A DNA stretch of 64,000 nt from Nannobrachium achirus (Eukaryota > Chordata > Actinopteri > Myctophiformes > Myctophidae): positions 2,168,079 through 2,232,078 of the forward strand of contig OY997642.1 in the NCBI GenBank assembly GCA_963921795.1. The letters run 5' to 3'. Position numbers and translations under genes: made by a program. The notes below the pieces were generated by a model. That model saw only the letters and a program-made list of their open reading frames with translations. It had not been told where the DNA came from and did no database searches. Of this stretch, positions 4,728 through 63,496 are shown in pieces; the first letter of the stretch is position 1; every line of letters begins with the position of its first letter.

Positions 4728-4844
4728 ATGGCCCTGGAGTTGGAGAAAACCCCCAGAAACCTGCTGGTCTGTGAGAAATCCAGTCTGGAAAATGACAAGA
4801 ACAGACTGAGCAAACAGATCCAAGATCACTACTATAACTATCAG
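4728..4844 (+). CDS. rpp40: RPP40 coding exon 1
   Basis: Begins at ATG 4728 and gives 39 codons (MALELEKTPRNLLVCEK to HYYNYQ), ending in phase 0 at CAG before donor gtaaaa. This ATG is chosen because the peptide aligns with the known N-terminus of RPP40 from its first residues. The frame stays open past the donor because the exon end is tandemly repeated downstream. Confidence 0.85.
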
Positions 4845-5335
4845 GTAAAATATATGATATTTATATATAATATAGATCACTACTATAACTATCAGGTAAA
4901 ATATATGATATTTATATATAATATAGATCACTACTATAACTATCAGGTAAAATATATGATATTTATATATAATATAGATCACTACTATAACTATCAGGTA
5001 ATATATGATTTATAATATGTATACTGTATATAATATATATAGACTATTACTATAACTATCAGGTAAATATATGATTTATAATATTTATATATGTATTTAT
5101 AATATAGACCATTACTACAACTATCAAGTAAATTATATATGATTTATAATATTACTACACCTACTAGGTTAAATATATGATTTATAATATTTATATATAA
5201 TATAGACCATTACTACAACTACCAGGTAAATAAATATATGATTTATAATATTACTACACCTACTAGGTTAAATATGTGATTTATAATATTTATATGTAAT
5301 ATAGATCATTACTACAACTATCAGGTAAAATGTAC
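4824..5335 (+). repeat. 51-bp tandem repeat of the RPP40 exon 1 donor junction
   Basis: The exon end and donor (gatcactactataactatc, then aggtaaaa) plus about 25 bp of intron are repeated with a 51-bp period. Copies 1-4 are nearly identical, with donors at 4845, 4896, 4947 and 4998. Diverged copies follow to about 5335 with units of variable length, about nine copies in all. The 51-bp period is 17 codons, so the first four donors share one reading frame. Confidence 0.9.
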
Positions 5336-5810
5336 GGGTGGTCCCCGGACCACTGGTTGAAAACCACTGATGTATGATGTAAATAAGACCCCCAGTTTGA
5401 GATGCATCAGGACTCAGGAGGGTACAAATGGAACCTAATAGACCCTTACAGCACAGCAGTGGTTCTCTTAGTGGGGTTCGGGGACCCCCAGGGGTCCTTG
5501 AGGGGGTCCCCAGCTGATGTAGCATCAAAATCATTTTACAATCACTTTGTCCATTTCTTATTCAAAAAGAGCAGATCTACAAGCTCACAGCGCGTCACTT
5601 TTTAAAAAAAATTATCTTGAAAATGTTCAGAAGATTATGAATTATATTTTTGATTTGCTTTACACTAATCCTCTCTGCTGGGGGAGGGGTCCCTGGCACA
5701 AATCTTCAGATGGGGGTCTGCGGCAAAATACATATTGATTCTCTACGGGTCCATTTGGTTCCATTTGTACACTCAGAGTTACAGTTATGAAATCGTCCGG
5801 GAATGGCCAG
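5336..5810. mobile_element. mixed hAT-like fragments in RPP40 intron 1
   Basis: Contains the ends gtccccggaccactggttga and cagtggttctcttagtgggg, a half hairpin (gcagatctacaagctcacag near 5570-5590) and the recurring motif gggtccatttggttccattt at 5747-5766. These are internal and terminal pieces of the element families seen elsewhere in the window. Precise boundaries are unclear. Confidence 0.4.
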
Positions 5811-5814
5811 GTTT

Positions 5815-6835
5815 GGAGTGAGTTTTATAGGACTCACTTGGTAACCGGTAGAGTCGCCGGAATGAAGCTCGCCTGGAAACAGTCTGAACTCTGAAGGTAA
5901 ACTTTCTGAAATGCAGCAGTTGCTAACCTAACGTTGCTATTGATGTTTAAACTAGGGTAAATTATAATAGAATATTAGAATATTAAATCATGTTGATACT
6001 GAAGAAGGCATACTGTGATTGTGTGACCTACTGTACATGTTTGTTGTTGCTAGCTTTAACATTTGTGATACTGTGAGATTAAGACTTATCACCATAATTT
6101 ACCCTAGTTTATGAACATCAATAGCAAGATGACTACATTAGTTTATGAACATCAATAGCAAGATGACTACATTAGTTTATGAACATCAATAGCAAGATGA
6201 CTACATTAGTTTATGAACATCAATAGCAAGATGACTACATTAGTTTATGAACATCAATAGCAAGATGACTACATTAGTTTATGAACATCAATAGCAAGAT
6301 GACTACATTAGTTTATGAACATCAATAGCAAGATGACTACATTAGTTTATGAACATCAATAGCAAGATGACTACATTAGTTTATGAACATCAATAGCAAG
6401 ATGACTACATTAGTTTATGAACATCAATAGCAAGATGACTACATTAGTTTATGAACATCAATAGCAAGATGACTACATTAGTTTATGAACATCAATAGCA
6501 AGATGACTACATTAGTTTATGAACATCAATAGCAAGATGACTACATTAGTTTATGAACATCAATAGCAAGATGACTACATTAGTTTATGAACATCAATAG
6601 CAAGATGACTACATTAGTTTATGAACATCAATAGCAAGATGACTACATTAGTTTATGAACATCAATAGCAAGATGACTACATTAGTTTAGCAACTGCTGC
6701 TTTTCAGAAAGTTTACCTTCAGAGTTCAGACTTGAAAAGCGCACCGTTGCTCCACCCAGTGTGCATTTCCGAACGCACCCCCGTATCCCGGCGAGTTTCA
6801 TTCCGGCGACTCTACTGGTATTCACTCACTTCACT
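5815..6835. mobile_element. foldback element containing a 34-bp minisatellite
   Basis: The left arm (about 5825-5975, with gagtcgccggaatgaa, ctgaactctgaaggtaaact, cagcagttgctaac) reappears inverted at about 6680-6825 (gtttagcaactgctgc, agtttaccttcagagttcag, ccggcgactctac). The right inner arm has expanded into the minisatellite at 6106-6690. No coding sequence. Confidence 0.65.
6106..6690 (+). repeat. 34-bp minisatellite, about 17 copies
   Basis: Nearly perfect repetition of a unit starting tagtttatgaacatcaatag and ending caagatgactacat. It lies in the arm of the foldback element in RPP40 intron 1. Confidence 0.95.
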
Positions 6836-7307
6836 GTATAATTTGGAGACTCACAATCCATTAAAATATTACAGCCGTGCTGCGCCGGTCCTGAAAATGC
6901 TCTCGTATAAGCACTCACTCATATAGCCTAATATGGGAGCGTTAATCCTTGTTCTGAGCTGGCGATCTTATCTGAATGACTGTTAAAGCACTTTATGTTA
7001 GGTTCCATATCGCTATAGATTTGAATTGCTTGTCTTTGTAACTTGTAAAGAAAATCGGTGTGCATTTTCATATGAAATGTATTTTCACAGGGATTAGTTA
7101 TTAGTGTGTTAGATATACATACTCCAAAATGTGTCAGATAGTCAGACAATGCTGCTCTGCATGTCTACAATGGAACAAAGTGGTGAAGGATGAATCCTAC
7201 ACCATCTCAGAACTTGACGTGAGATTTGATCCTACCCTACGCCAACGTCAAAGTCACACTGCGATGATAACTAAGTGCCGACACTTTGCCAAAATTTGGA
7301 TCTGCGC

Positions 7308-7729
7308 TAGGGCTGCATTATATGGACAAAATCTCATATTTCGTTATTCATGTCAAATATCTCGATATCGATACGATATACGATGCTGCCGTATAAATGT
7401 CATATTTTATATTTCAAGTGTTGCAACAGTGAAAACTAAGCATTATTCAACAAACACCGTAATAACAAGTCAATATCACTCTTGATTTTAAGTGCTATTG
7501 ACTTCCCACACTTGTATTTTGATATTCTAAATGTAGCAAAAGGCAACGATATGGGCAACGGTATAGGTGATAAGGCCGATATAGGAAACAATATGGACAA
7601 TATATTGCCCAGGGCAGTATAAAGTATGTCGCAAGTATATCGCGATATCCTTGCCTTTCACAATACTGATATTACGCATGGTCATCATACCTCGATAACG
7701 ATACGATAACGATGTATTGTGCAGCCCTA
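7308..7729. mobile_element. non-autonomous hAT-type element (TAGGGCTGCA ends)
   Basis: Begins TAGGGCTGCATTATATGG and ends TGTGCAGCCCTA. Flanks atctgcgc (7300-7307) and atctgcac (7730-7737) are an 8-bp duplication with one mismatch. The interior is rich in cgatat-type palindromic words. No transposase frame. Confidence 0.75.
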
Positions 7730-7978: not shown

Positions 7979-8073
7979 GCACACACACACACACACACAC
8001 ACACGCGCACGCACGCACGCACGCACGCTACGCACGCACGCTACGCACGCACGCACGCACGCACACACACACA
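7979..8073. repeat. (CA)n/(GCAC)n microsatellite after RPP40 exon 2 donor
   Basis: Alternating purine-pyrimidine tract beginning 12 bp into intron 2. Confidence 0.95.
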
Positions 8074-8504: not shown

Positions 8505-8700
8505 ATTTTTTTCTCTAGGAGGAACATTGTATCGTTTTATTAATAATTATTATTGATACTTATATAATATGATAACCTATATCTCTATTAATACATATGA
8601 TGTATCTTCCAGTAGGAAGGTATAGTATTATTATTTATTATAATGTATCTTCCAGGAGGAACGTACGGTTTTATTAATACATATGATGTATGTTCCAGGA
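8505..8700 (+). repeat. degenerate tandem copies of the RPP40 exon 3 acceptor
   Basis: Acceptor-like segments followed by an exon-3-like start occur at 8519 (ctctag then gaggaacattgtatc), about 8612 (cttccag then taggaaggta), 8656 (cttccag then gaggaacgtacggttt) and the real one at 8699 (gttccag then gaacaacgtacggtct). Linker sequence taatacatatgatgtat also repeats. Confidence 0.7.
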
Positions 8701-8767
8701 ACAACGTACGGTCTCTCTCATCACACCAGGATAGATGAAGACAACACGGTGGCTCTGCTTCCTACAG
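8699..8767 (+). CDS. rpp40: RPP40 coding exon 3
   Basis: The last base of exon 2 plus this exon gives GTTYGLSHHTRIDEDNTVAL and then LPT, ending with one base before donor gtgact. The DEDNTVALLP motif is the conserved central block of RPP40. Upstream acceptor look-alikes do not give this peptide. Confidence 0.87.
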
Positions 8768-10187: not shown

Positions 10188-10283
10188 GTCATCTGATCCT
10201 GTCAGTAGATAAGGACACCTATGAGCTGCTAGGACTGGAAGGAAGAGAGTCTCGCTACAACCACAGACACCACAGCAGATACG
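10188..10283 (+). CDS. rpp40: RPP40 coding exon 4
   Basis: After acceptor tgtgcag the frame reads HLILSVDKDTYELLGLEGRE to HHSRY and leaves one base before donor gtcagt. LSVDKDTYE is a conserved RPP40 block. The donor chosen is the first of a long series of copies. It keeps frame with exon 5, whereas the bookend donor at 10619 (335 nt further) would not. Confidence 0.85.
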
Positions 10284-10632
10284 GTCAGTTCATACAACCA
10301 CACCATATATGGTCAGTTCCTACCACCACACCATATATGGTCAGTTCCTACCACCACACCATATATGGTCAGTTCCTACCACCACACCATATATGGTCAG
10401 TTCATACAACCACAGACACCACACCATATATGGTCAGTTCCTACCACCACACCATATATGGTCAGTTCCTACCACCACACCATATATGGTCAGTTCCTAC
10501 CACCACACCATATATGGTCAGTTCCTACAACCACAGACACCACACCATATATGGTCAGTTCCTACCACCACACCATATATGGTCAGTTCCTACAACCACA
10601 GACACCACAGCAGATACGGTCAGTTCCTGTCA
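10265..10632 (+). repeat. 28-bp tandem repeat of the RPP40 exon 4 donor junction
   Basis: Units of the type ccatatatggtcagttccta plus ccaccaca (28 bp), about twelve, with occasional insertion of a cagacaccaca segment copied from the exon. Each retains a gtcagt donor hexamer. The first (10275-10290) and last (10610-10625) copies carry the exon-like cagatacggtcagtt. Inner copies carry catatatggtcagtt instead. Confidence 0.9.
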
Positions 10633-11429: not shown

Positions 11430-11476
11430 GCACACACACACACACACGCGCATGCACGCACGCACGCACACACAGA

Positions 11477-11508
<32 letters not shown>

Positions 11509-11560
11509 CACACAGTCACACACACGCACGCAGGAACGCACACACATGCACGCGTGCCTG
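11430..11560. repeat. (CA)n/(GCAC)n microsatellite after RPP40 exon 5 donor
   Basis: Alternating tract beginning at the seventh base of intron 5, only about 60 bp before the exon 6 acceptor. Intron 5 is just 198 bp and mostly microsatellite. Confidence 0.95.
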
Positions 11561-13995: not shown

Positions 13996-14130
13996 TAACA
14001 ACGCGTCTGACAGTCACGTGTCTACGTACGTGTGTCCTGAACCTCACAGTGCATGTGAACACGCCCTGCTGTGCACCGTGACCGGACTCATCACACCTGA
14101 AGATGTCTATGAGCTGATCAAACTCATGAG
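13996..14130 (+). CDS. rpp40: RPP40 coding exon 7
   Basis: Acceptor tgtttcag precedes 13996. Joined to exon 6 it reads CNNASDSHVSTYVCPEPHSA to VYELIKLM, ending with two bases before donor gtaatc. STYVCPEP and LCTVTGLI are conserved RPP40 blocks. Confidence 0.87.
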
Positions 14131-14181
14131 GTAATCAATACTATGATCTGATCAAACTGCTGAGGTAATCAATACTATGAT
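14114..14181 (+). repeat. two-copy 34-bp duplication of the RPP40 exon 7 donor junction
   Basis: 14114-14147 (ctgatcaaactcatgaggta...) and 14148-14181 (ctgatcaaactgctgaggta...) are adjacent, nearly identical copies. Each contains the exon end, the donor gtaatc and 17 bp of intron. Confidence 0.9.
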
Positions 14182-14454
14182 CTGCTATTATCAATACACA
14201 AATGACAATATAATCTACCTGTAGATATACAGAACTGTCTAAAAAAAAAGATTTTCTTCTGTAATATAATAATTATTGTTAAACTTTGATATCTAGATTC
14301 ATTGTGCATGCAGTGACATTTTCAAAACCTTTTTTTCGTTGTATTTTTATGGCATACATTTCATGAAAATCAAAAAATCCATATCTCAAAATATTAGAAT
14401 ATGACTTCAAAAGAAGGATTTATAATACAGAAATGCTAAAACCTCTGAAAGGTT

Positions 14455-14671: not shown

Positions 14672-17600
14672 TGGATATTATTTCTCATCAGGCCGTATTT
14701 AGAACAGCCTAGACTCAGTATTAACCATAATGATATTATTTGTCATCAGGCAGTATTTAGAACAGCCCAGACTCAGTATTAACCATAATGATATTATTTG
14801 TCGTCAGGCAGTATGTAGAACAGCCCAGAGTCAGTATTAACCATAATGATATTATTTGTCATCAGGCAGTATTTAGAACAGCCCAGACTCAGTATTAACC
14901 ATAATGATATTATTTGTCGTCAGGCAGTATGTAGAACAGCCCAGAGTCAGTATTAACCATAATGATATTATTTGTCATCAGGCAGTATTTAGAACAGCTC
15001 AGACTCAGTATTAACCATAATGATATTATTTGTCATCAGGCAGTATTTAGAACAGACTCAGTATTAACCATAATGATATTATTTGTCATCAGGCAGTATT
15101 TAGAACAGCCCAGACTCAGTATTAACCATAATGATATTATTTGTCGTCAGGCAGTATGTAGAACAGCCCAGAGTCAGTATTAACCATAATGATATTATTT
15201 GTCATCAGGCAGTATTTAGAACAGCCCAGACTCAGTATTAACCATAATGATATTATTTGTCGTCAGGCAGTATGTAGAACAGCCCAGAGTCAGTATTAAC
15301 CATAATGATATTATTTGTCATCAGGCAGTATTTAGAACAGCCCAGACTCAGTATTAACCATAATGATATTATTTGTCGTCAGGCAGTATGTAGAACAGCC
15401 CAGAGTCAGTATTAACCATAATGATATTATTTGTCATCAGGCAGTATGTAGAACAGCCCAGAGTCAGTATTAACCATAATGATATTATTTGTCATCAGGC
15501 AGTATGTAGAACAGCCCAGAGTCAGTATTAACCATAATGATATTATTTGTCGTCAGGCAGTATGTAGAACAGCCCAGACTCAGTATTAACCATAATGATA
15601 TTATTTCTCATCAGGCCGTATTTAGAACAGCCCAGACTCAGTATTAACCATAATGATATTATTTGTCATCAGGCAGTATGTAGAACAGCCCAGACTCAGT
15701 ATTAACCATAATGATATTATTTGTCGTCAGGCAGTATGTAGAACAGCCCAGAGTCAGTATTAACCATAATGATATTATTTGTCATCAGGCAGTATTTAGA
15801 ACAGCTCAGACTCAGTATTAACCATAATGATATTATTTGTCATCAGGCAGTATGTAGAACAGCCCAGACTCAGTATTAACCATAATGATATTATTTGTCG
15901 TCAGGCAGTATGTAGAACAGCCCAGAGTCAGTATTAACCATAATGATATTATTTGTCATCAGGCAGTATTTAGAACAGCTCAGACTCAGTATTAACCATA
16001 ATGATATTATTTGTCATCAGGCAGTATTTAGAACAGCTCAGACTCAGTATTAACCATAATGATATTATTTGTCATCAGGCAGTATGTAGAACAGCCCAGA
16101 GTCAGTATTAACCATAATGATATTATTTGTCATCAGGCAGTATTTAGAACAGCCCAGACTCAGTATTAACCATAATGATATTATTTGTCATCAGGCAGTA
16201 TGTAGAACAGCCCAGACTCAGTATTAACCATAATGATATTATTTGTCGTCAGGCAGTATGTAGAACAGCCCAGAGTCAGTATTAACCATAATGATATTAT
16301 TTGTCATCAGGCAGTATTTAGAACAGCTCAGACTCAGTATTAACCATAATGATATTATTTGTCATCAGGCAGTATGTAGAACAGCCCAGACTCAGTATTA
16401 ACCATAATGATATTATTTGTCGTCAGGCAGTATGTAGAACAGCCCAGAGTCAGTATTAACCATAATGATATTATTTGTCATCAGGCAGTATTTAGAACAG
16501 CTCAGACTCAGTATTAACCATAATGATATTATTTGTCATCAGGCAGTATTTAGAACAGCTCAGACTCAGTATTAACCATAATGATATTATTTGTCATCAG
16601 GCAGTATGTAGAACAGCCCAGAGTCAGTATTAACCATAATGATATTATTTGTCATCAGGCAGTATTTAGAACAGCCCAGACTCAGTATTAACCATAATGA
16701 TATTATTTGTCATCAGGCAGTATTTAGAACAGCCCAGACTCAGTATTAACCATAATGATATTATTTGTCATCAGGCCGTATTTAGAACAGCCCAGACTCA
16801 GTATTAACCATAATGATATTATTTGTCATCAGGCAGTATTTAGAACAGCCCAGACTCAGTATTAACCATAATGATATTATTTGTCATCAGGCAGTATTTA
16901 GAACAGCCCAGACTCAGTATTAACCATAATGATATTATTTGTCGTCAGGCAGTATTTAGAACAGCCCAGACTCAGTATTAACCATAATGATATTATTTGT
17001 CATCAGGCAGTATGTAGAACAGCCCAGACTCAGTATTAACCATAATGATATTATTTGTCGTCAGGCAGTATGTAGAACAGCCCAGAGTCAGTATTAACCA
17101 TAATGATATTATTTGTCATCAGGCAGTATTTAGAACAGCTCAGACTCAGTATTAACCATAATGATATTATTTGTCATCAGGCAGTATGTAGAACAGCCCA
17201 GACTCAGTATTAACCATAATGATATTATTTGTCGTCAGGCAGTATGTAGAACAGCCCAGAGTCAGTATTAACCATAATGATATTATTTGTCATCAGGCAG
17301 TATTTAGAACAGCTCAGACTCAGTATTAACCATAATGATATTATTTGTCATCAGGCAGTATTTAGAACAGCTCAGACTCAGTATTAACCATAATGATATT
17401 ATTTGTCATCAGGCAGTATGTAGAACAGCCCAGAGTCAGTATTAACCATAATGATATTATTTGTCATCAGGCAGTATTTAGAACAGCCCAGACTCAGTAT
17501 TAACCATAATGATATTATTTGTCATCAGGCAGTATTTAGAACAGCCCAGACTCAGTATTAACCATAATGATATTATTTGTCATCAGGCAGTATTTAGAAC

Positions 17601-18081
17601 AGCCCAGACTCAGTATTAACCATAATGATATTATTTGTCGTCAGGCAGTATTTAGAACAGCCCAGACTCAGTATTAACCATAATGATATTATTTGTCATC
17701 AGGCAGTATGTAGAACAGCCCAGAGTCAGTATTAACCATAATGATATTATTTGTCATCAGGCAGTATTTAGAACAGCCCAGACTCAGTATTAACCATAAT
17801 GATATTATTTGTCATCAGGCAGTATTTAGAACAGCCCAGACTCAGTATTAACCATAATGATATTATTTGTCATCAGGCCGTATTTAGAACAGCCCAGACT
17901 CAGTATTAACCATAATGATATTATTTGTCATCAGGCAGTATTTAGAACAGACTCAGTATTAACCATAATGATATTATTTCCCATCAGACAGTATTTAGAA
18001 CAGCTCAGACTCAGTATTAACCATAATGATATTATTTCTCCTAGACTAAGTATTAACCATAATGATATTATTTCTCATCAG
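14672..18081 (+). repeat. 58-bp minisatellite of the RPP40 exon 8 acceptor junction, about 58 copies
   Basis: Unit: gcagtatttagaacagccca, gactcagtattaaccataat, gatattatttgtcatcag (58 bp). The end of each unit is a usable-looking 3' splice site (ttatttgtcatcag) and its start resembles the true exon 8 start (gcagtacgtggggcagcccg). Copies differ mainly at cag/cgt, attta/atgta and agact/agagt. The last unit runs directly into exon 8. Confidence 0.97.
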
Positions 18082-18280
18082 GCAGTACGTGGGGCAGCCC
18101 GGGGGGTCCTCGTGGCTGGCGGTGACGGTGAAGGGTTTTGTTGACAGTCCCGTTGCCTGGACGACGGCGGAGCATGGCTTCCTCCAGGGAGGAGACAGCC
18201 TGTACAGCCTGGTTCTGTTTGAAGATGCTGTCTACTGGATGATGATGATGACTGGTCCCCATGATGACTGTCCTCCTTAA
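18082..18280 (+). CDS. rpp40: RPP40 coding exon 8 and stop
   Basis: Acceptor tttctcatcag precedes 18082. Joined to exon 7 it reads RQYVGQPGGSSWLAVTVKG, then FVDSPVAW, AEHGFLQGGDSLYSLVLFE and a C-terminal GPHDDCPP before TAA (18278-18280). The C-terminus matches the characteristic end of RPP40. The exon immediately follows the 58-copy array of its own acceptor region. Confidence 0.88.
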
Positions 18281-18310
18281 TGACTGGTCCCCACGATGAC
18301 TGTCCTCCTT

Positions 18311-30573: not shown

Positions 30574-30692
30574 GTCTCTTGATGAGCGCCAGACTCTCCT
30601 GTGCCTGGCTCAACAGCAGGTCCAGAGCTTTGGGGTTTTCAACCGACATGTTTTCCCGGAAACCGTCTTTGATTCTGCGCAGGGCGTACGTC
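30572..30692 (-). CDS. lyrm4: LYRM4 coding exon 2
   Basis: On the minus strand, after acceptor gtcattgcag, the frame reads (R)TYALRRIKDGFRENMSVENP to LALIKRQ, ending in phase 0 at CAG before a GT-repeat donor. RTYAxRRIxDxFREN is the signature of LYRM4. Confidence 0.9.
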
Positions 30693-31035
30693 CTGCAATG
30701 ACACATTTAAACATGGGAACATTATCCAGTGTTACAGTCCTGCAATGACACATTTAAACATGGGAACATTATCCAGTGTTACAGTCCTGCAACGACACAT
30801 TTAAACATGGGAACATTATCCAGTGTTACAGTCCTGCAACGACACATTTAAACATGGGAACATAATCCAGTGTTACATCCTCCAGTGTTAACAGTCCTAC
30901 AACGACACATTTAAACATGGAAACATTATCCAGTGTTACAGTCCTGAAACGACACATTTAAACATGGGAACATAATCCAGTGTTACAGTCCTGCAACGAC
31001 ACATTTAAACATGGGAACATAATCCAGTGTTACTG
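30693..31035 (-). repeat. 47-bp tandem repeat of the LYRM4 exon 2 acceptor, about 7 copies
   Basis: Plus-strand unit tcctgcaatgacacatttaa, acatgggaacattatccagt, gttacag (47 bp). On the gene strand each unit ends in a 3' splice-site-like tgtcattgcag or tgtcgttgcag followed by the GGA that opens exon 2. One copy has ttcag. A partial extra unit is at about 30872-30895. Confidence 0.92.
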
Positions 31036-36246: not shown

Positions 36247-36430
36247 GGAGCAGCAGGTAAACGGTGTCACCTTACAGCCTGCATCGACCAATCAGCATCC
36301 AGAGGAGGAGGAGGAGGACTATGATGATGAAGAGTATGATGAAGATGAGGGTGATGAAGACGAGGACTGGGGTTGGAGTGAAACCAGAGGTCACTCCATG
36401 AAACCCAGCAGAGCTGGACTCAACACACAG
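36229..36430 (+). CDS. riok1: RIOK1 coding exon 2 (acidic region)
   Basis: Only the acceptor gtgtgtgcag before 36229 keeps frame with exon 1. The two later cag triplets lead at once to TAA. It reads (S)VGVCVLEQQVNGVTL to the acidic HPEEEEEDYDDEEYDEDEG and DEDEDWGWSE, ending in phase 0 before donor gtctgt. The acidic stretch and DWxW fit the RIOK1 N-terminal region. The first codons come from microsatellite sequence. Confidence 0.8.
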
Positions 36431-36436
36431 GTCTGT

Positions 36437-36600
36437 TTATTACATCATTTATTACTGTATTCATTAATAACATGATTCATAACATCATGTATTACTGTAT
36501 TAATTAATAACATGATTCATAACATAATTTATTACTTTATTAATTAACTCCATGAAACCCAGCAGAGCTGGACTCAACACACAGGTCTGGTTCATTACAC
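36437..36600 (+). repeat. duplications downstream of RIOK1 exon 2 including its donor
   Basis: 36547-36584 repeats the last 38 bases of exon 2 (actccatgaaacccagcaga to acacag) together with donor gtctgg. Between them a sequence of about 47 bp (ttattactgtattaattaat with acatgattcataaca) is itself repeated two to three times. Confidence 0.88.
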
Positions 36601-36609
36601 AATCATTAC

Positions 36610-37006
36610 TTAAAGGACAACTTTGTTTTTTTACAACAAGGGTTCATATTTTAGATTGTATTTAGAGAAAAGAAAAAGTGAGTTTCAGTGGGTGGGGGCA
36701 TTCGTACAAGTGGCTAAAGATGTCTTTTTAGACAAAATAAGCTGGTGATTTCTTTACAGTAACACTACCAGCCCCCATAAGTAACATCTGCCTATGAAGG
36801 ATTGCGGTTCATCTTGGGAATGGGCTTATTGTGTCTAAAAATACTTATTTAACCACACGCATGCCCCCACCCACTGAAATCAAAGTCATTAAAATGGCTA
36901 AAACAACAGAAAGAAGCAAATGAAAACTTTTAACACTCATCTTTTCTTTTCTCTAATTACAATCTAAAATATGAACCCTTGTAAAAAAAACAAAGTTGGC
37001 CTTTAA
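36610..37006. mobile_element. palindromic MITE
   Basis: taaaggacaactttgttttt at the left end mirrors aaacaaagttggccttta at the right. Inner arms gggttcatattttagattgt and acaatctaaaatatgaaccc also pair, as do ccccacccactgaaa and its complement. No coding sequence. Confidence 0.75.
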
Positions 37007-39088: not shown

Positions 39089-39167
39089 AAACCCTCCATC
39101 AACGCCGGGAAGTCATCGACTCCAAACGACAAAGCTCTGAGGAAATATGAACACAAGATTAACCTGG
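39089..39167 (+). CDS. riok1: RIOK1 coding exon 3
   Basis: Acceptor tttgtttcag precedes 39089. It reads KPSINAGKSSTPNDKALRKY to EHKINL with one base before donor gtaaaa. KxLRKxExKINLD is conserved in RIOK1. Confidence 0.87.
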
Positions 39168-39632
39168 GTAAAATTATGAAATATGAACACATTAACCTGG
39201 TAAAACTATGAAATATGAACACATTAACCTGGTAAAACTATGAAATATGAACACATTAACCTGGTAAAACTATGAAATATGAACACATTAACCTGGTAAA
39301 ACTATGAAATATGAACACATTAACCTGGTAAAACTATGAAATATGAACACATTAACCTGGTAAAACTATGAAATATGAACACATTAACCTGGTAAAACTA
39401 TAAATATGAACACATTAACCTGGTAAAACTATGAAATATGAACACATTAACCTGGTAAAACTATGAAATATGAACACATTAACCTGGTAAAACTATGAAA
39501 TATGAACACATTAACCTGGTAAAACTATGAAATATGAACACATTAACCTGGTAAAACTATGAAATATGAACACATTAACCTGGTAAAACTATGAAATATG
39601 AACACAAGATTAACCTGGGTAAAACTCAAACT
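39140..39632 (+). repeat. 32-bp tandem repeat of the RIOK1 exon 3 donor junction, about 14 copies
   Basis: Unit gaaatatgaacacattaacc plus tggtaaaactat, derived from the exon end (aaatatgaacacaagattaa, cctgg) and donor gtaaaa. Inner copies lack 3 bases (cacatta for cacaagatta) and one g. The last copy (39592-39625) again has the full exon-like form. Confidence 0.93.
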
Positions 39633-40232: not shown

Positions 40233-40302
40233 ATAAACTGAACTATGCAGACTCGGTCATCAACAAAGTCACAGCCATGCAGAGACAGAGAGAAGCAGAC
40301 AC
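40233..40302 (+). CDS. riok1: RIOK1 coding exon 4
   Basis: Acceptor gtgttgcag precedes 40233. With exon 3 it reads DKLNYADSVINKVTAMQRQ to READ, leaving two bases before donor gtaggt. DSVINKVT is conserved. Confidence 0.87.
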
Positions 40303-40372
40303 GTAGGTTTAATCATTCTGTTCTTCAGAGACAGAGGGAAGCAGACACGTAGGTTTTATCATTCTGTTCTTC
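40281..40372 (+). repeat. two-copy 46-bp duplication of the RIOK1 exon 4 donor junction
   Basis: agagacagagagaagcagac, acgtaggtttaatcattctg, ttcttc is followed directly by a second copy with three substitutions. Each copy has the exon end, donor and 24 bp of intron. Confidence 0.93.
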
Positions 40373-43055: not shown

Positions 43056-43056
43056 T

Positions 43057-43057
<1 letters not shown>

Positions 43058-43959: not shown

Positions 43960-45390
43960 GCAGTGTTTCTCAAATGGGGGTACGCGGAGGTACTGCAGGG
44001 GGTACTCAAGAAGATGCCCCTCGAAAAGAAAATAGAAGTATAAATCTTGATAATATTATTCATAGTTAAATAATTCATTACAATTGAATTAGGAGAAAAA
44101 ACATTTTCTGTTATGTATAATGATGAAACTTGGAGACACTTGTTGTGAGCTTGATAGTCGCCAATCCAAATTCGGTACCAGGCAACTGGCATGTGTTTGA
44201 ATGATGTTTGAATGTAAGTTATTGATATGAAAACTGGACTGAAATGTTATGGCCACAGTGTTCAAGATTCAAGATGTTTATTGTCACAAGGATGTACAAG
44301 TGTAGGTTATACGGTATGCACGTTGGCTCTTGCCAACGTGCCTGGCACTTTGGCTGACTGGTCAGTGCACATACCTGGAAAATCGGGGTCCCGGGTTTGC
44401 CTCCCGGCCGCGACGCGTGATTCAAAATAACGGCGCAGTTCGGCCAGTGGAGACGCCCCTATACTCTATAGAGACGCCCCTCTTAACAACACACACGCAT
44501 TAACTGTTAAAGCCTGCACCTGACACTTTTGTGCTGTGCTCAAAATAAACTTGACACTTGTACTGTGAAAGGCCTCTCATTTTATTTATCTTCTGTGCTG
44601 GGTGTTTTTTTAATGGGTTGGCATGGTACGTAAAGAGAAATTAGAATGAGTGAAAACGGCTCACAACACACTTTGAAAAGATAAAAAAATATACTGTCTT
44701 GTTTTGTTCACTACTAGAAAATGCAGATATAACTTAGAAGACATAACTGTTTATTTACAACAGCCAAAAATGTAATAAAACATGGGCTGTAGGAAACAAT
44801 TAAGGAAACCATAAAATGTGAATTAACGTTCATACTCAGCATTTCCCTAAAGCTTATTCGAATTCGCCTTTACTTTAACATTAAAACCCGAACTACTGTC
44901 ATACTCAAGATAACTTATAACGTGTCGGGTTAATAAAGTAACGCGCTACGTGCCTGACAGAGATGACAGCGTCCCCACCCGGGTGCCGCCACGGGCCAAT
45001 CAGAGGCAAGCGGAACGAGAGGGGCGTCTCCACTGGCCGAACTGCGCCGTTATTTTGAATCACGCGGCCGTGACGCTACACAAGTACATGCACTGTGAAA
45101 AACTTAGGGTGGGGGTGCTCCATAATACACAGAATAAAAAATAAAAAATAAAATAAATCTATGTTGAAAATAAATCTCAGGAGGCACTGTTTGAAACTCT
45201 CACTCCCTTTCTTATTTTTTGTGATGTTATATTCTTGAAAATGGGGGTTATCATAGCTGATATACTGTACCACTGGTTATGGTTTTAATTGCAGTTTTAG
45301 GACATTTTTGTCGTTGGGTAAAGGGGGTACTTAGATTCAGAAATACTATACTTGTACTGTTCTCCATTTGTGTCTAATAAAATACTCAAT
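43960..45390. mobile_element. composite repeat region with a 47-bp inverted repeat
   Basis: cagtgtttctcaaatggggg near 43961 is a hAT-like end. A LINE/SINE-like ttcaagatgtttattgtcac follows at about 44272. The 47-bp sequence beginning cgcgtgattcaaaataacgg (about 44413) is repeated inverted near 45021-45067. A tRNA-like segment (ggctgactggtcagtgc with cccgggtttgcctccc) stands at 44352-44405. Individual boundaries are unclear; no gene is seen. Confidence 0.45.
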
Positions 45391-48130
45391 CAATCCAAAA
45401 ACAGGTTCCGTCACGGTTACTGTAAAGGAAACCCCAGGAAGATGTAATAAAATACTCAATCAATCCAAAAACAGGTTCCGTCACGGTTACTGTAAAGGAA
45501 ACCCCAGGAAGATGTAATAAAATACTCAATCAATCCAAAAACAGGTTCCGTCACGGTTACTGTAAAGATAATAAAATACTCAATCAATCCAAAAACAGGT
45601 TCCGTCACGGTTACTGTAAAGGAAACCCCAGGAAGATGTAATAAAATACTCAATCAATCCAAAAACAGGTTCCGTCACGGTTACTGTAAAGGAAACCCCA
45701 GGAAGATGTAATAAAATACTCAATCAATCCAAAAACAGGTTCCGTCACGGTTACTGTAAAGATAATAAAATACTCAATCAATCCAAAAACAGGTTCCGTC
45801 ACGGTTACTGTAAAGGAAACCCCAGGAAGATGTAATAAAATACTCAATCAATCCAAAAACAGGTTCCGTCACGGTTACTGTAAAGATAATAAAATACTCA
45901 ATCAATCCAAAAACAGGTTCCGTCACGGTTACTGTAAAGGAAACCCCAGGAAGATGTAATAAAATACTCAATCAATCCAAAAACAGGTTCCGTCACGGTT
46001 ACTGTAAAGATAATAAAATACTCAATCAATCCAAAAACAGGTTCCGTCACGGTTACTGTAAAGGAAACCCCAGGAAGATGTAATAAAATACTCAATCAAT
46101 CCAAAAACAGGTTCCGTCACGGTTACTGTAAAGGAAACCCCAGGAAGATGTAATAAAATACTCAATCAATCCAAAAACAGGTTCCGTCACGGTTACTGTA
46201 AAGATAATAAAATACTCAATCAATCCAAAAACAGGTTCCGTCACGGTTACTGTAAAGGAAACCCCAGGAAGATGTAATAAAATACTCAATCAATCCAAAA
46301 ACAGGTTCCGTCACGGTTACTGTAAAGATAATAAAATACTCAATCAATCCAAAAACAGGTTCCGTCACGGTTACTGTAAAGGAAACCCCAGGAAGATGTA
46401 ATAAAATACTCAATCAATCCAAAAACAGGTTCCGTCACGGTTACTGTAAAGATAATAAAATACTCAATCAATCCAAAAACAGGTTCCGTCACGGTTACTG
46501 TAAAGGAAACCCCAGGAAGATGTAATAAAATACTCAATCAATCCAAAAACAGGTTCCGTCACGGTTACTGTAAAGATAATAAAATACTCAATCAATCCAA
46601 AAACAGGTTCCGTCACGGTTACTGTAAAGGAAACCCCAGGAAGATGTAATAAAATACTCAATCAATCCAAAAACAGGTTCCGTCACGGTTACTGTAAAGA
46701 TAATAAAATACTCAATCAATCCAAAAACAGGTTCCGTCACGGTTACTGTAAAGGAAACCCCAGGAAGATGTAATAAAATACTCAATCAATCCAAAAACAG
46801 GTTCCGTCACGGTTACTGTAAAGATAATAAAATACTCAATCAATCCAAAAACAGGTTCCGTCATGGTTACTGTAAAGGAAACCCCAGGAAGATGTAATAA
46901 AATACTCAATCAATCCAAAAACAGGTTCCGTCATGGTTACTGTAAAGGAAACCCCAGGAAGATGTAATAAAATACTCAATCAATCCAAAAACAGGTTCCG
47001 TCATGGTTACTGTAAAGGAAACCCCAGGAAGATGTAATAAAATACTCAATCAATCCAAAAACAGGTTCCGTCACGGTTACTGTAAAGATAATAAAATACT
47101 CAATCAATCCAAAAACAGGTTCCGTCACGGTTACTGTAAAGGAAACCCCAGGAAGATGTAATAAAATACTCAATCAATCCAAAAACAGGTTCCGTCACGG
47201 TTACTGTAAAGATAATAAAATACTCAATCAATCCAAAAACAGGTTCCGTCACGGTTACTGTAAAGGAAACCCCAGGAAGATGTAATAAAATACTCAATCA
47301 ATCCAAAAACAGGTTCCGTCACGGTTACTGTAAAGATAATAAAATACTCAATCAATCCAAAAACAGGTTCCGTCACGGTTACTGTAAAGGAAACCCCAGG
47401 AAGATGTAATAAAATACTCAATCAATCCAAAAACAGGTTCCGTCACGGTTACTGTAAAGATAATAAAATACTCAATCAATCCAAAAACAGGTTCCGTCAT
47501 GGTTACTGTAAAGGAAACCCCAGGAAGATGTAATAAAATACTCAATCAATCCAAAAACAGGTTCCGTCATGGTTACTGTAAAGGAAACCCCAGGAAGATG
47601 TAATAAAATACTCAATCAATCCAAAAACAGGTTCCGTCATGGTTACTGTAAAGGAAACCCCAGGAAGATGTAATAAAATACTCAATCAATCCAAAAACAG
47701 GTTCCGTCACGGTTACTGTAAAGATAATAAAATACTCAATCAATCCAAAAACAGGTTCCGTCATGGTTACTGTAAAGGAAACCCCAGGAAGATGTAATAA
47801 AATACTCAATCAATCCAAAAACAGGTTCCGTCACGGTTACTGTAAAGATAATAAAATACTCAATCAATCCAAAAACAGGTTCCGTCATGGTTACTGTAAA
47901 GGAAACCCCAGGAAGATGTAATAAAATACTCAATCAATCCAAAAACAGGTTCCGTCACGGTTACTGTAAAGATAATAAAATACTCAATCAATCCAAAAAC
48001 AGGTTCCGTCATGGTTACTGTAAAGGAAACCCCAGGAAGATGTAATAAAATACTCAATCAATCCAAAAACAGGTTCCGTCATGGTTACTGTAAAGATAAT
48101 AAAATACTCAATCAATCCAAAAACAGGTTA
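45376..48130 (+). repeat. 70/54-bp higher-order array of the RIOK1 exon 8 acceptor junction
   Basis: Long unit (70 bp): aaaatactcaatcaatccaa, aaacaggttccgtcacggtt, actgtaaaggaaaccccagg, aagatgtaat. Short unit (54 bp) stops after actgtaaag and adds ataat. They alternate as a 124-bp pair with occasional long-long or long-long-long runs, about 44 monomers. The part after aaaacag copies the first 40 bases of exon 8, so each long unit encodes [13 protein letters not shown] behind an acceptor-like AG. The recurring 65-residue minus-strand frames are artefacts. Confidence 0.96.
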
Positions 48131-48158
48131 CTGTAAAGGTTTATGATGTGATTGACAG

Positions 48159-48239
48159 GTTCCGTCATGGTTACTGTAAAGGAAACCCCAGGAAGATGGT
48201 GAGGACCTGGGCTGAGAAGGAGATGAGGAACCTGATAAG
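48159..48239 (+). CDS. riok1: RIOK1 coding exon 8
   Basis: Acceptor gtgattgacag precedes 48159. With exon 7 it reads [20 protein letters not shown] to MRNLI, ending with two bases before a weak donor gttata. This copy, unlike those in the array, continues into [14 protein letters not shown], conserved in RIOK1. Confidence 0.9.
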
Positions 48240-48246: not shown

Positions 48247-48642
<396 letters not shown>

Positions 48643-49975: not shown

Positions 49976-50188
49976 TGATTGACAGGTTGCAGACAGCAGG
50001 CATCCTGAGTCCAGAGTGATTGACAGGTCTATAATGTGATTGACAGGTTTATAATGTGATTGACAGGTCTATAATGTGATTGACAGGTTTATAATGTGAT
50101 TGACAGGTTGATATAACGTGATTGACAGGTCTATAATGTGATTGACAGGTCTATAATGTGATTGACAGGTCTATAATGTGATTGACAG
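49976..50188 (+). repeat. 20-bp tandem repeat and partial exon copy before RIOK1 exon 9
   Basis: 49986-50016 is a partial copy of exon 9 (gttgcagacagcaggcatcc, tgagtccagag) behind its own gattgacag acceptor. It is followed by about nine 20-bp units (gtctataatgtgattgacag) up to the real acceptor. Each unit ends in a 3' splice-site-like gattgacag. The same unit also precedes exon 8 (48139-48158). Confidence 0.92.
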
Positions 50189-50275
50189 GTTGCAGACAGC
50201 AGGCATCCTGAGTCCAGAGCCTCTCATGTTGAGGAGTCACGTTCTACTGATGACCTTCATCGGCAAGGATGACAT
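50189..50275 (+). CDS. riok1: RIOK1 coding exon 9
   Basis: Reads (R)[18 protein letters not shown] to FIGKDD with two bases (AT) before donor gtaaga. [17 protein letters not shown] is conserved in RIOK1. Confidence 0.9.
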
Positions 50276-50465
50276 GTAAGAACCAATCACATGTTAGAAT
50301 GACATGTAAGAACCAATCACATGTTAGGATGACATGTAAGAACCAATCACATGTTAGAATGACATGTAAGAACCAATCACATGTTAGGATGACATGTAAG
50401 AACCAATCATAATCACCTGTTAGATTGAAATGTAAGGGAACGAGAACCAATCACACGTTAGAATG
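50266..50465 (+). repeat. 30-bp tandem repeat of the RIOK1 exon 9 donor junction
   Basis: Unit gacatgtaagaaccaatcac plus atgttagaat (30 bp), about six copies, each beginning with the exon end gacat and donor gtaaga. A related, more diverged block resumes at 58796-58990 after large insertions. Confidence 0.93.
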
Positions 50466-50468
50466 ACA

Positions 50469-50930
50469 TGTCACGGTGGTGCAGTGGGTAGTGCCGTCTC
50501 CTCACAGCTAGAAGGTCCTGGGTTCGATTCCCGCCGGGGGACGCTGTGGGCGTTGGGGGTGTGTTCTCTCCTACGAGTCATCAGTGCCCACACCCTAGGT
50601 GGGGTCGGCTGATAGGGCCTTTCTGTGTGGAGTTTGCATGTTCTCCTCGTGTCTCCTAGGGTTGATACCCTCACAAAAACATGCAGTAATACTGGTCTCC
50701 ATACTGCCTCCCCCTGGCCAGCCGGGGAATGGAGGGGAAAGGAACTGGTTGGAATAACGTGTTCCTTCCACACGCTACGTCCAACCAGGGAAACTACCCC
50801 TCCCTTCCCCCCATGAGCTCAGTTCAGGGCTCTGCCCAGGTTGGCAGAGGGAGAGCAGAGCCCAGGATTACAGCTTAGGCAACTGGCACTGGGGGAAACA
50901 TGGCTTACAAAATTGTGGGATAAAAAAATG
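50469..50930 (+). mobile_element. tRNA-derived SINE
   Basis: Starts tcacggtggtgcagtgggta (box-A-like) with box B gggttcgattcccgcc at about 50520. A long body rich in ctggccagccggggaatgga-type words follows, with A-rich sequence near 50920. It was inserted into the exon 9 donor repeat. Confidence 0.7.
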
Positions 50931-57400: not shown

Positions 57401-57899
57401 GAGACAACAGGGAATAAGGAATCCTGATAAATGATGCTATAAACATTGTTGTTTGTTTTACCCCTTCAGAATGAGACAACAGGGAATAAGGAATCCTGAT
57501 AAATGATGCTATAAACATGCTTGTTTGACCCCTTCAGAATGAGACAACAGAGAACAAGGAATCCTGATAAATGATGCTATAAACATGCTTGTTTGACCCC
57601 TTCAGAATGAGACAACAGAGAACAAGGAATCCTGATAAATGATGCTATAAACATGCTTGTTTGGCCCTTCAGAATGAGACAACAGGGATGACAAATGATG
57701 CTATAAACATGCTTGTTTGGCCCTTCAGAATGAGACAACAGGAATGACAAATGATGCTATAAACATGCTTGTTTGGCCCTTCAGAATGAGACAACAGGAA
57801 TGACAAATGATGCTATAAACATGCTTGTTTGACCCCTTCAGAATGAGACAACAGAGAACAAGGAATCCTGACAAATGATGCTATAAACATGCTTGTTTG
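51475..57899 (+). repeat. 72-bp minisatellite, about 88 copies
   Basis: Unit gacaaatgatgctataaaca, ttgttgtttgttttacccct, tcagaatgagacaacaggga, ataaggaatcct. Inner copies differ only at a few sites (aca/acg, ata/aca, tttta/tttga). Edge copies carry gataaatg, catgcttgtttg or are shortened at the 3' end. Because 72 is 24 codons and no unit has a stop on one minus-strand frame, a 1945-residue open frame arises; I regard it as non-coding. Confidence 0.97.
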
Positions 57900-58795: not shown

Positions 58796-58990
58796 GAGAA
58801 TGACATATAAAGACCAGCCAATCACCTATTAGAATGGCATGTAAAGACAGCCAATCACCTATTAGAATGGCATGTAAAGACCAGCCAATCACCTATTAGA
58901 ATGGCATGTAAAGACAGCCAATCACCTATTAGAATGGCATGTAAAGACCAGCCAATCACCTATTAGAATGGCATGTAAAGACAGCCAATC
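58796..58990 (+). repeat. second block of the exon 9 donor-type repeat, about 7 copies
   Basis: Units of 29-31 bp such as gcatgtaaagacagccaatc plus acctattagaatg, clearly related to the 30-bp unit at 50266-50465 (gacatgtaagaaccaatcac). They alternate between gaccagccaat and gacagccaat. Confidence 0.88.
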
Positions 58991-59019
58991 AACTTGTGTT
59001 GAGGTAGTTGTTTGGTGTA

Positions 59020-59115
59020 TGTTGTCTGTCTTCAGCTCCTCTCCTCTCCTATAGAAGGATTGATGTGTGTTGTCTCTTCAGTGAAGCATGTTTGATGCGT
59101 GTTGTCTCTTCCAGT
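59020..59115 (+). repeat. three-copy duplication of the RIOK1 exon 10 acceptor
   Basis: gttgtctgtcttcag then ctcctctcctctcctatag (59036 onward), gttgtctcttcag then tgaagcatg (about 59081), and gttgtctcttccag then tccctctcctctcctgaag (59115, the real one). The first copy includes an exon-like start. Confidence 0.85.
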
Positions 59116-59252
59116 CCCTCTCCTCTCCTGAAGAACGCGGTCCTGTCGTCGTCCAAGTCCAGAGAGCTTTACCTGCAGGTGATCCACCAGATGAGGAGGA
59201 TGTACCAGGACGCACGGCTGGTCCACGCCGACCTCAGTGAGTTCAACATGCT
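59115..59252 (+). CDS. riok1: RIOK1 coding exon 10 (catalytic loop)
   Basis: With exon 9 it reads [20 protein letters not shown] and [20 protein letters not shown], then [10 protein letters not shown] with two bases before donor gtgagt. HADLSEFN holds the catalytic aspartate and metal-binding asparagine of RIO kinases. The acceptor at 59115 is preferred over 59036 because only it continues into LLKN in frame. Confidence 0.9.
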
Positions 59253-59387
59253 GTGAGTATGATGATTATTATACTGTATGATTATTATACTCCATACATA
59301 TGTATATGTATGGAGGATGTACCAGGACGCACGGCTGGTCCACGCAGACCTCAGTGAGTTCAACATGCTGTAAGTATGATGATTATT
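59195..59387 (+). repeat. duplication of the RIOK1 exon 10 end, including the catalytic loop
   Basis: 59195-59267 is repeated at 59312-59384 (offset 117 bp) with one coding change (gccgac to gcagac, synonymous). The donor is changed from gtgagt to gtaagt. Shorter echoes of ttcaacatgctgtatgta occur at 59769-59786 and 62999-63016. Confidence 0.93.
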
Positions 59388-59745
59388 AGATAGATATATA
59401 CCTTTATTATCCCAAGGGGGAAATTCAGTTGTCCAGTTGTAGCATAGCAGTATACAGTTATTTACAAAGTTACAGAGAAGTAAGAAAAAAGATAGATAAG
59501 AGGAAAAAACAAGAGCAGTACAGTACCAATAAAGAGAAGGTGCATCAATAGAGGGGGCGAATAATATATAAGTATATATACATAAAGTGACTTACAAAAA
59601 GAGACCATAGCAGTCAATGCTAGTTAGTGCAACAAGTATCACACTTGTTGTCATTGTTAAACAGAGCAGAATACTCAGAAACTACCAACACAACCTAATA
59701 GTGCAATGTCAAAAATCAGTGCGAATGCGAATTATTATAGTGTAC
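59386..59745 (-). mobile_element. LINE 3'-end fragment
   Basis: tagatagatatataccttta followed by ttatcccaagggggaaattc is, in reverse, the widespread fish LINE 3' end with its TCTA tail. The body to about 59745 shows no intact frame. Confidence 0.6.
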
Positions 59746-61680: not shown

Positions 61681-61690
61681 CTGAAAAGAC

Positions 61691-62875
61691 TAGGGCTGAC
61701 CCAAAAAATTAGAATATTCGAAGCTTCGTTCGAAGGCACGGTATTCGAATTTGAAAAATAAATTCGAATAATCGGCCGCGGCCGTTTGTCCTTTGGGGGG
61801 GCCGCGTGCCTTAGCTTGCATGCGCCTCGCTCCACTCTAGCGTGATAGCGTCACCCCCTTCTCACACACGTGTTAACATTAAAGCCAACAGCAACAAGAG
61901 CATGCATGAAGCCATCAGAATGGTCGATGATGAAGAAAAAAAAAGAAAAGACAGCGCGCTGTCACATATACACCGACATGCGTTTGGCACCGAAATGTGT
62001 GACACCAATGTCTGAGTAACATCACCCAATGCAACTATGCGATGCAGTCACACATTTCGTTATCAAACCATTGTCGGTGTAACATGATCCATGCATGCGT
62101 TTGCTGTCTTCCACTCGCTGACAGACACACAACTCAACGCAAGGAAACAAACAGCGAAAATTGGATTTTACAAAACGGACCCCGTCAGCGTCGATCCCGT
62201 TTTAAAGAGGAAAAAAGAGCTTAAAACCCAACTTGCTAGGGTTACGTTGTCGTGGTGTTGATGAAGTTTATATCGGATCTGCTGCAAGCTCAATAGTCGC
62301 GCCCGCATAGAGTAGGCTACGTTGTCTGAGCCTGACCATCAGCTTTCGGTTGATGAGTGTGGAACTTTAATTCAGACACAGTGCAGTGCAATTATTTACT
62401 ATAAAATCTACTATTACATTAGCGTGTACAACACCTTGGGACTTGGGAGTTAATCTGTTTGTTATATAGGGCTCGAGTCGCGCTGCAGTGTTTGCTGTTG
62501 CAGCCGCGCTTTGTTACATTACTGACGTGATGTGATTATGTCAATCCTACTTGTCCTGCAAAAACACCTTTCTTTAATGTAGAAAACATTCGTATCTTCT
62601 TCTTCCTCGTTGTATTGTTGTACTATTTAATGAAAATAAGGAGCATTATTATGAGGAAAAAACTGGTGTGTTTTCCCTTTTAAAATTGTGTAAATCGCAC
62701 ATTTTTAAACACATTTCCTTAACGGTTATCACTTATGTAACCGATAAACTTTTGCTCCCTACCACCCCCCCCCCCCCCCCCCCCCCCCCCGGTCGCCGTC
62801 ATCGAAGCTTCGAAGTTCGAAAGAAAGCTTCGATTAAGCTTCGATTATGAAAAAAGTAATCGAAGGTCAGCCCTA
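61691..62875. mobile_element. non-autonomous hAT-type element (TAGGGCTGACC ends)
   Basis: Starts TAGGGCTGACCCAAAAAATT and ends AGGTCAGCCCTA. Perfect 8-bp duplication gaaaagac (61683-61690, 62876-62883). Subterminal words attcgaagcttcgttcgaag and gcttcgaagttcgaaagaa pair. Contains a 28-base C run near 62764. No intact transposase frame in 1.2 kb. Confidence 0.88.
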
Positions 62876-63128
62876 GAAAAGACTAACCTGAAAGATTAAT
62901 TCACTAAAAACATCTGCTCTTTCTATACTTAAGTGATTACATGTGTGTGAGTGTTAGCCACTGCCCTGTGAAAGCACCATGTGTGTCAGTCTGTTTAGTT
63001 CAACATGCTGTATGTAGAGTGTTTAGTAGAACATATGCCAACACAATTATTATTATTATTTGTCCTGTTTTTTACATCTCTGTAAAACATTCAAGGTATT
63101 TATTTTTGAAGTTGGAATGGCCAGTTTC

Positions 63129-63376
63129 CACCTAAAACACCCTGGACGACGCTCCACTCGTCCCAGACTCTTCTCCCTTCCCTAAAACACCCTGGACGAC
63201 GCTCCACTCGTCCCAGACTCTTCTCCCTTCCCTAAAACACCCTGGACGACGCTCCACGCGTCCCAGACTCTTCTCCCTTCCCTAAAACGCCCCGGACGAC
63301 GCTCCACGTGTCCCAGACTCTTCTAAAACACCCTGGACGACGCTCCGCGCGTCCCAGACTCCTCTAAAACACCCTG
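63129..63376 (+). repeat. 51-bp tandem repeat before RIOK1 exon 11, about 5 copies
   Basis: Unit ccctaaaacaccctggacga, cgctccactcgtcccagact, cttctcccttc, with the last two copies shortened (ttctaaaacaccctgg). Pyrimidine-rich; ends 17 bp before the exon 11 acceptor. Confidence 0.92.
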
Positions 63377-63392
63377 TCCCATGTGTTTGCAG

Positions 63393-63496
63393 GTACCATG
63401 AAGGCGAGGCCTACATCATTGATGTCAGTCAGTCAGTGGAACACGATCATCCTCACGCCTTGGAGTTCCTACGGAAAGACTGCAACAACGTCAACG
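63393..63496 (+). CDS. riok1: RIOK1 coding exon 11 (metal-binding motif)
   Basis: Acceptor tgtttgcag precedes 63393. With exon 10 it reads [20 protein letters not shown] to [15 protein letters not shown], leaving one base before donor gtaaca. IIDVSQS contains the metal-binding aspartate (about residue 332) that in RIO kinases takes the place of the DFG motif. Following exons lie beyond the window. Confidence 0.92.

Follow-up and report, generated by a model that had tools for sequence, protein, structure and literature searches.

Tandem repeats built from exon–intron boundaries concentrate at exon ends, with arrays counted once, in three adjacent genes of the fish Nannobrachium achirus

Minisatellite-like tandem duplications of exon–intron boundaries, termed mirages, have been described in amphioxus, where they involve both donors and acceptors of Adh3 and other loci, including the globins BflGb6 and BflGb9 (PMC3087553). 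According to the accessible part of that report, AG or GT is kept in many copies, copies at the array edges escape homogenization, and data on Adh3 together with the authors' reverse-transcription PCR suggest regular splicing; a route to intron gain was also proposed. A later paper, likewise accessible in part, adds PGBD5 and cites troponin C (PMC3902484). Here, we analyze a stretch of 64,000 nucleotides from Nannobrachium achirus (Actinopteri, Myctophidae; assembly GCA_963921795.1, contig OY997642.1, positions 2,168,079 to 2,232,078), hereafter the window, which contains the genes RPP40, LYRM4, and RIOK1. An earlier note on this DNA had reported tandem arrays whose repeat unit is a copy of a splice junction, and had missed the already published amphioxus precedent. 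The arrays of the window are the same kind of object as the amphioxus mirages, and are denser.

As in amphioxus, the units span exon–intron boundaries, the 5' and 3' sides of introns are both affected, AG or GT is kept in many copies, and the edges of three arrays are not homogenized. In contrast, the accessible amphioxus data concern single genes, with 3 and 6 units of 150-160 bp in BflGb6 and units of 10-72 bp in Adh3, whereas all three genes of the window, which encode vertebrate-like proteins, carry repeats; 14 of their 39 junctions are involved, one of them by its exon side alone, a single intron holds as many as 58 acceptor words, and two neighboring splice sites have a unit in common. 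Among fish, polymorphic intronic repeats resembling those reported here are present in introns 1 and 3 of sparid GH and in intron 1 of MSTN-2 (PMC3045353); the latter contains a 150-bp repeat at its 5' (donor) end, and the accessible part of the report does not state whether the unit includes exonic bases. Intronic minisatellites have also been described in an earthworm, with no mention of a boundary-spanning unit in the accessible text (PMC12783039). The model of intron gain by tandem genomic duplication at AGGT, as accessible in part, likewise involves duplication of segments with splice-site words inside genes; unlike in that model, most duplication edges in the window are located away from AGGT and no new intron is evident. 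No report of vertebrate mirages was found in the literature searched, in which coverage of subscription journals is thin and cases may exist. As far as that literature goes, the vertebrate host, the density, the array size, the quantified junction focus, and the unit common to two acceptors are new.

Three genes were reconstructed: RPP40 (plus strand, 8 exons), LYRM4 (minus strand, 3 exons), and RIOK1 (plus strand, exons 1-11). Exons were placed by tblastn with human protein queries, and splice sites were fixed by eye on the sequence. Against the PDB, the joined products aligned with human p40 (query 5-360), human LYRM4 (1-85), and human RIO1 (4-356), the RIO1 alignment being gapped in the acidic N-terminal region; all three fell in the expected Pfam families. 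Thus, the exons are correct wherever the protein is conserved; the least secure junction is the RIOK1 exon 2 acceptor. The gene models comprise 39 junctions (20 donors and 19 acceptors) instead of the 40 counted previously. Tandem Repeats Finder (TRF) returned 109 rows, which were merged into 34 minisatellite loci, spanning 25.9 kb, and 16 microsatellite loci. A TRF locus was located at most 30 bp from 21 of the 39 junctions, and two additional duplications devoid of a TRF locus, at the RIOK1 exon 10 acceptor and donor, brought the total to 23, as the earlier note had estimated.

TRF missed the RIOK1 exon 10 duplications and placed the arrays of RPP40 exon 8 and RIOK1 exon 8 next to the junction instead of across it; the junctions were therefore also probed by edit distance. 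Each probe consisted of 15 exonic and 15 intronic bases, and a copy was defined as a match with at most 5 edits within 3.5 kb. The RIOK1 exon 2 acceptor was excluded as low-complexity, leaving 38 junctions. A local junction-spanning copy was detected at 13 of them (8 donors and 5 acceptors), and the best match at the remaining 25 had 7-11 edits. On the opposite strand, none of 39 probes matched with at most 5 edits (best match, 8 edits); reversed probes matched in 1 of 39 cases, solely for the low-complexity RIOK1 exon 2 acceptor. A fourteenth case, the RIOK1 exon 8 acceptor, matches by its exon side; its full probe required 7 edits, the intronic bases being unlike those of the array. Twelve of the 13 units previously described as copies of the junction itself therefore passed the probe, this acceptor being the thirteenth. 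The LYRM4 exon 2 acceptor, proposed as a further case with only a few exonic bases, passed as well, with 3-6 exonic bases. Both strands are thus involved, the minus strand being represented by the latter acceptor alone.

To compare junctions with other positions, base coverage was not used as the sole null, since one large array would count thousands of times. With each array collapsed to one unit, a local copy was present at 6.5% of intron positions and 5.1% of intergenic positions, versus 13 of 38 junctions (binomial tail for 13/38 versus 6.5%, 4e-7, junctions being treated as independent). In a founder simulation, one unit per array was placed at random, none wholly inside exons (20,000 draws). 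For eight arrays, the unit length used in this simulation, in the profile, and in the within-intron comparison was fixed manually from TRF rows. The TRF arrays cover 9 junctions, a count reached in 0 of 20,000 draws; the expectation was 1.25 with placement in the whole window and 1.37 with placement in the span of the finding. When at least 5 exonic bases were required, 7 junctions were covered versus 1.11 and 1.20 expected (P = 1e-4 and 5e-5, respectively).

The profile of collapsed copies peaked on the junction and fell on both sides: the value was 34% on the junction itself, 30% over +1 to +10, 15% over +21 to +40, 6% over +81 to +160, and 2-4% beyond +160, versus 3% in intergenic DNA. Within the same introns, copies were found at 13/38 junctions and at 6/38, 4/39, and 1/36 of the positions 40, 80, and 150 bp into the intron, respectively (one-sided Fisher tests versus the junction, P = 0.055, 0.011, and 0.0004, respectively). 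In exon interiors at least 20 bp from a junction, 9.5% of positions had a copy, partly from the same junction repeats. Microsatellites cluster too, being located at most 30 bp from 8 of 39 junctions versus 3.1% of intron positions. Selection may account for the fall of the profile on the exon side, but the fall on the intron side is hard to explain by selection. These results indicate that, with arrays counted once, repeat founders concentrate at exon ends in this window, in agreement with the duplication process focused on exon ends that had been proposed from the sequence.

The gene-model segments and junction repeats to which the following paragraphs refer are listed below.
4728..4844, plus strand: RPP40 exon 1, coding part, aligning to human p40.
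4823..5329, plus strand: RPP40 exon 1 donor array, 51-bp unit made of 22 exonic bases, the GT donor, and intron.
8586..8712, plus strand: RPP40 exon 3 acceptor array, 43 bp, 3 copies, 14 exonic bases.
10268..10628, plus strand: RPP40 exon 4 donor array, 28 bp, 11-12 copies, 20 exonic bases.
14107..14184, plus strand: RPP40 exon 7 donor array, 34 bp, 2.3 copies, 24 exonic bases.
14674..18081, plus strand: RPP40 exon 8 acceptor array, 58-bp unit, 6 exonic bases.
18082..18280, plus strand: RPP40 exon 8 to the first stop, gene model.
30690..31033, minus strand: LYRM4 exon 2 acceptor array, 47-bp unit, 3-6 exonic bases.
36393..36610, plus strand: RIOK1 exon 2 donor duplication, 38 exonic bases and the intron start found again at +154.
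39142..39626, plus strand: RIOK1 exon 3 donor array, 15 copies of a 32-bp unit, the true donor among them, 26 exonic bases.
40280..40372, plus strand: RIOK1 exon 4 donor, single duplication of 46 bp, 23 exonic bases.
45375..48129, plus strand: array upstream of the RIOK1 exon 8 acceptor, 70- and 54-bp units, 23-40 exonic bases.
48137..48161, plus strand: RIOK1 exon 8 acceptor adjoining the exon, 24 of 25 bases identical to one unit of the exon 9 acceptor array.
49976..50192, plus strand: RIOK1 exon 9 acceptor array, with a 20-bp sub-array ending 4 bases from the splice word.
50266..50471, plus strand: RIOK1 exon 9 donor array, about 5 good copies of a 30-bp unit with 10 exonic bases.
59010..59135, plus strand: RIOK1 exon 10 acceptor copy, 79 bp upstream, 21 exonic bases, diverged (79% identity).
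59195..59388, plus strand: RIOK1 exon 10 donor copy, 58 exonic and 19 intronic bases found again at +117 with 97% identity.

In RPP40, the exon 1 donor array begins with three identical copies followed by diverged ones, and provides three additional donors in frame without a stop codon (open reading frame 4713-5012). The copy of the exon 7 donor is located at offset 34 and differs from the probe by 2 edits in 30. The exon 8 array contains 58 acceptor words, the true acceptor being among them. In RIOK1, the array upstream of the exon 8 acceptor harbors 43 acceptor copies, 25 of which carry 40 exonic nucleotides directly followed by TAA. Three arrays have exon-like edge copies and a homogenized interior. 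At the RIOK1 exon 3 donor, both edge copies match the exon, the distal one with 32/32 identical bases, and small deletions are common to the interior copies. At the RIOK1 exon 9 acceptor, the far boundary copy (10 intronic and 31 exonic bases) is identical to the true boundary at 41/41 positions, and the 20-bp sub-array sits between these two copies. At the RPP40 exon 4 donor, the copy at the distal edge resembles the exon (83% match). The word CATATATGG occurs 10 times in the latter array and 5 times in RPP40 intron 6 (12622-12904).

Alignment of the junction copies revealed at least 92% identity in 11 of 13 cases (for arrays, the aligned stretch takes in neighboring units) and lower values, 77% and 79%, in the other two. 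Five of 20 rows gave a self-alignment alone and were discarded (RPP40 exon 7 donor and stop codon, LYRM4 exon 1 donor, RIOK1 exon 4 acceptor, and the near copy of the RIOK1 exon 9 acceptor).

We consider it probable that the arrays are mirage minisatellites generated by end-joining duplication across junctions, expanded internally, and tolerated by splicing. In a first step, a stretch of about 30-120 bp containing the exon end, the splice site, and the intron start would be duplicated in tandem, by end-joining of staggered breaks with fill-in synthesis and not by slippage on the AGGT word. In mammalian cells, small tandem duplications arise at breaks with 3' overhangs through Pol alpha-primase fill-in and Ku-dependent joining, according to the accessible part of the report (PMC8355091). 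Eight loci of the window, at junctions and elsewhere, have TRF copy numbers of 2.0-2.3; six of them extend only 1-4 bp past two full units and the others 10 and 14 bp, as tallied by hand from approximate TRF edges and omitting 30690-31033, whose true unit is 47 bp. These edge lengths fit end-joining with fill-in better than slippage on long homology. In a second step, in several cases, the copies would expand from the middle into an array. At the RIOK1 exon 2 donor, a 40-bp sub-array (36442-36547) separates two boundary copies, as does the sub-array of the exon 9 acceptor. Since boundary copies flank the sub-arrays at both exons, a single duplication would have come first and expansion between the two copies later, which suggests the order from duplication to internal expansion. 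In a third step, the array would be spliced out as intron by normal splicing; gene function can persist since the copy adjoining the exon body keeps the true junction. Exon ends would be more prone to breaks than the deep intron, transcription, a nucleosome edge, and a step in base composition being candidate causes.

Arrays at different sites are partly related, in disagreement with the earlier description of the units as unrelated in sequence. The RIOK1 exon 8 acceptor matched one unit of the array at the exon 9 acceptor, which lies 1.9 kb downstream, with a score of 22 (best of 500 shuffles, 12). Relationships were also found between the RIOK1 exon 9 donor array and the array at 58797-58991 (z = 13.5), and between the units of the two arrays flanking LYRM4 exon 1 (31312-32130 and 33452-33631; z = 16.5). 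On comparison of the sequences, copying between neighboring splice sites seems to occur, either direction being possible, and the acceptor in use at RIOK1 exon 8 appears to be a single unit of the exon 9 array. It is conceivable, with less confidence than we place in the origin by end-joining, that exon ends are genome-wide hot spots of short tandem duplication in this vertebrate lineage, with up to dozens of decoy splice sites at many junctions and units copied between neighboring sites.

Several observations weigh against a focus of duplication on junctions. Without collapsing, a local copy was present at 48% of intron positions at least 40 bp from a junction versus 34% of junctions, and 45% of intron positions at least 60 bp out lie inside arrays. 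There is thus no excess per base because a few huge arrays fill the introns, and the previous statement that repeat density alone does not explain the pattern holds with arrays counted once but not per base. The contrast is also weaker close to the junction, with copies at 4-6 of 38-39 positions at 20-80 bp (one-sided P = 0.01-0.06). Deep introns hold dispersed repeats, which were left unmasked in the tests; these may be younger and dilute the baseline. Some arrays are related, hence not all are independent. Comparison of mirage junctions with other junctions pointed to no distinct correlate: differences in the guanine-plus-cytosine step (p = 0.078) and in guanine-plus-cytosine content of the intron end (p = 0.054) were borderline, and splice strength was no different; intron length did differ (p = 0.010), but the arrays themselves lengthen introns. 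The end-joining step is based on few arrays, two of the eight having the 10- and 14-bp excesses. Finally, all results come from one 64-kb window with three genes, in which a regional effect may be at work.

The strongest competing explanation involves no junction focus at all: duplication would be frequent everywhere, purged in exons, and tolerated across junctions, which dense arrays would touch by chance. The per-base figures given above are in favor of it, as is the stop codon of RPP40, another coding boundary, which is likewise spanned by a tandem duplication (32 bp, 18245-18312). The coding end of this gene is also copied downstream (102 bp, 18315-18416), with the frame kept to its own stop. 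However, with arrays counted once, junctions are about five-fold above intron positions, and density declines from 30% beside the junction to 2-6% past 80 bp, whereas tolerance alone predicts a flat profile. We therefore regard this explanation as unlikely, if a serious contender.

Duplications near exons might alternatively remain visible for longer, one copy being under selection and the nearby sequence being older and less subject to deletion. The presence of a dispersed element in several introns and the two junction copies that look old (77% and 79% identity) are consistent with such shelter. Nevertheless, old protected copies do not account for the excess because of the high identity of the other 11 aligned copies, and the density at junctions exceeds that at 100-150 bp, where shelter should be nearly equal. 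This explanation appears improbable.

Retention of extra splice sites for robustness or regulation of splicing is less credible still. At 7 of 8 arrays, every score-filtered copy had intact splice dinucleotides, with 55/55 copies (from 60 segments) and 43/43 as examples. The eighth, the RPP40 exon 4 donor array, was scored with an offset of one base. For RPP40 exon 8, a more stringent recount gave 40 of 41 copies. In this analysis, greedy segmentation left out diverged copies (copies used/segments: RPP40 exon 1, 4/10, exon 4, 9/12, and exon 8, 55/60; LYRM4, 6/7; RIOK1 exon 3, 15/15, exon 8, 43/43, exon 9 acceptor, 7/9, and donor, 5/7). Since the copies are near-identical, intact dinucleotides are expected regardless of selection. 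Exon-derived bases were less variable than intron-derived bases in 4 of 8 arrays, as selected redundancy would predict, but more variable in the other 4, including the two largest. At RIOK1 exon 8, exonic variation was inflated (0.048) because 54-bp units had been segmented as 70-bp ones; the recount gave 0.010, versus 0.000 for intronic bases. In 41 anchored copies of RPP40 exon 8, exonic and intronic variation was about equal (0.062 and 0.064). Because variation is mixed, we make no claim for or against constraint on exon-derived bases. The three in-frame RPP40 exon 1 donors are in favor of selected redundancy, but the 25 fuller RIOK1 exon 8 acceptor copies meet TAA in frame (exon 7-8 phase), and mirage junctions are no different in splice strength.

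Slippage between AGGT or CAG words, or the birth of introns through tandem duplication, had been suggested in the earlier note and is now very doubtful. The units do carry AG-GT words, the edge is located 3-6 bp from the splice word in three repeats (RPP40 exon 8, LYRM4 exon 2, and the 20-bp sub-array of RIOK1 exon 9, the only such edges), and intron gain from mirages was proposed for the amphioxus globins in the accessible part of that study (PMC3087553). However, at 12 of 14 junctions the repeated stretch takes in 10-58 bp of the exon, so that its edges are away from the splice word. The joined products align to the human proteins with few gaps, which would place the arrays within introns flanked by old exons. 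An assembly artefact, which the difficulty of assembling long near-identical arrays might suggest, is the least plausible explanation, as the arrays vary in unit and period, hold internal variants and sub-arrays, and adjoin intact coding exons, and the 64-kb window is devoid of any N.

Other repeats were observed in the window. Two arrays located off junctions, at 20365-26561 (51 bp x 123) and 51480-57899 (72 bp x 90), contribute about half of the minisatellite bases. Outside TRF loci, the two strands together contain 11 occurrences of the word AAAATAGCAGATCTAC, probably part of a mobile element; some are intronic, and the positions include 1529, 2428, 3437, 13534, 14485, and 28349. An imperfect duplication of about 45 bp was detected by eye in the LYRM4 5' leader (32587-32700), just upstream of the start codon. 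CA/TG microsatellites start or end about 12 bp or less from the splice site at six junctions, and the CA/TG repeat is continuous with the GT of the LYRM4 exon 2 donor. The CA/TG microsatellites near junctions are the following.
7979-8072: CA/TG microsatellite near a junction.
11430-11545: CA/TG microsatellite near a junction.
29576-29689: CA/TG microsatellite near a junction.
30471-30571: CA/TG microsatellite near a junction.
43054-43109: CA/TG microsatellite near a junction.
48250-48642: CA/TG microsatellite near a junction.

If general, the concentration of mirage minisatellites at exon ends would reveal that a vertebrate has a mutation process targeting the ends of exons, and would provide a natural experiment on the choice by the spliceosome of one site among up to 58 near-identical ones. 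The origin of the amphioxus mirages would also become testable in a group with many sequenced relatives. Should exon ends be hot spots genome-wide, the accuracy of splicing would be constantly tested by a mutation process that seeks out junctions and is linked to transcription or to exon chromatin.

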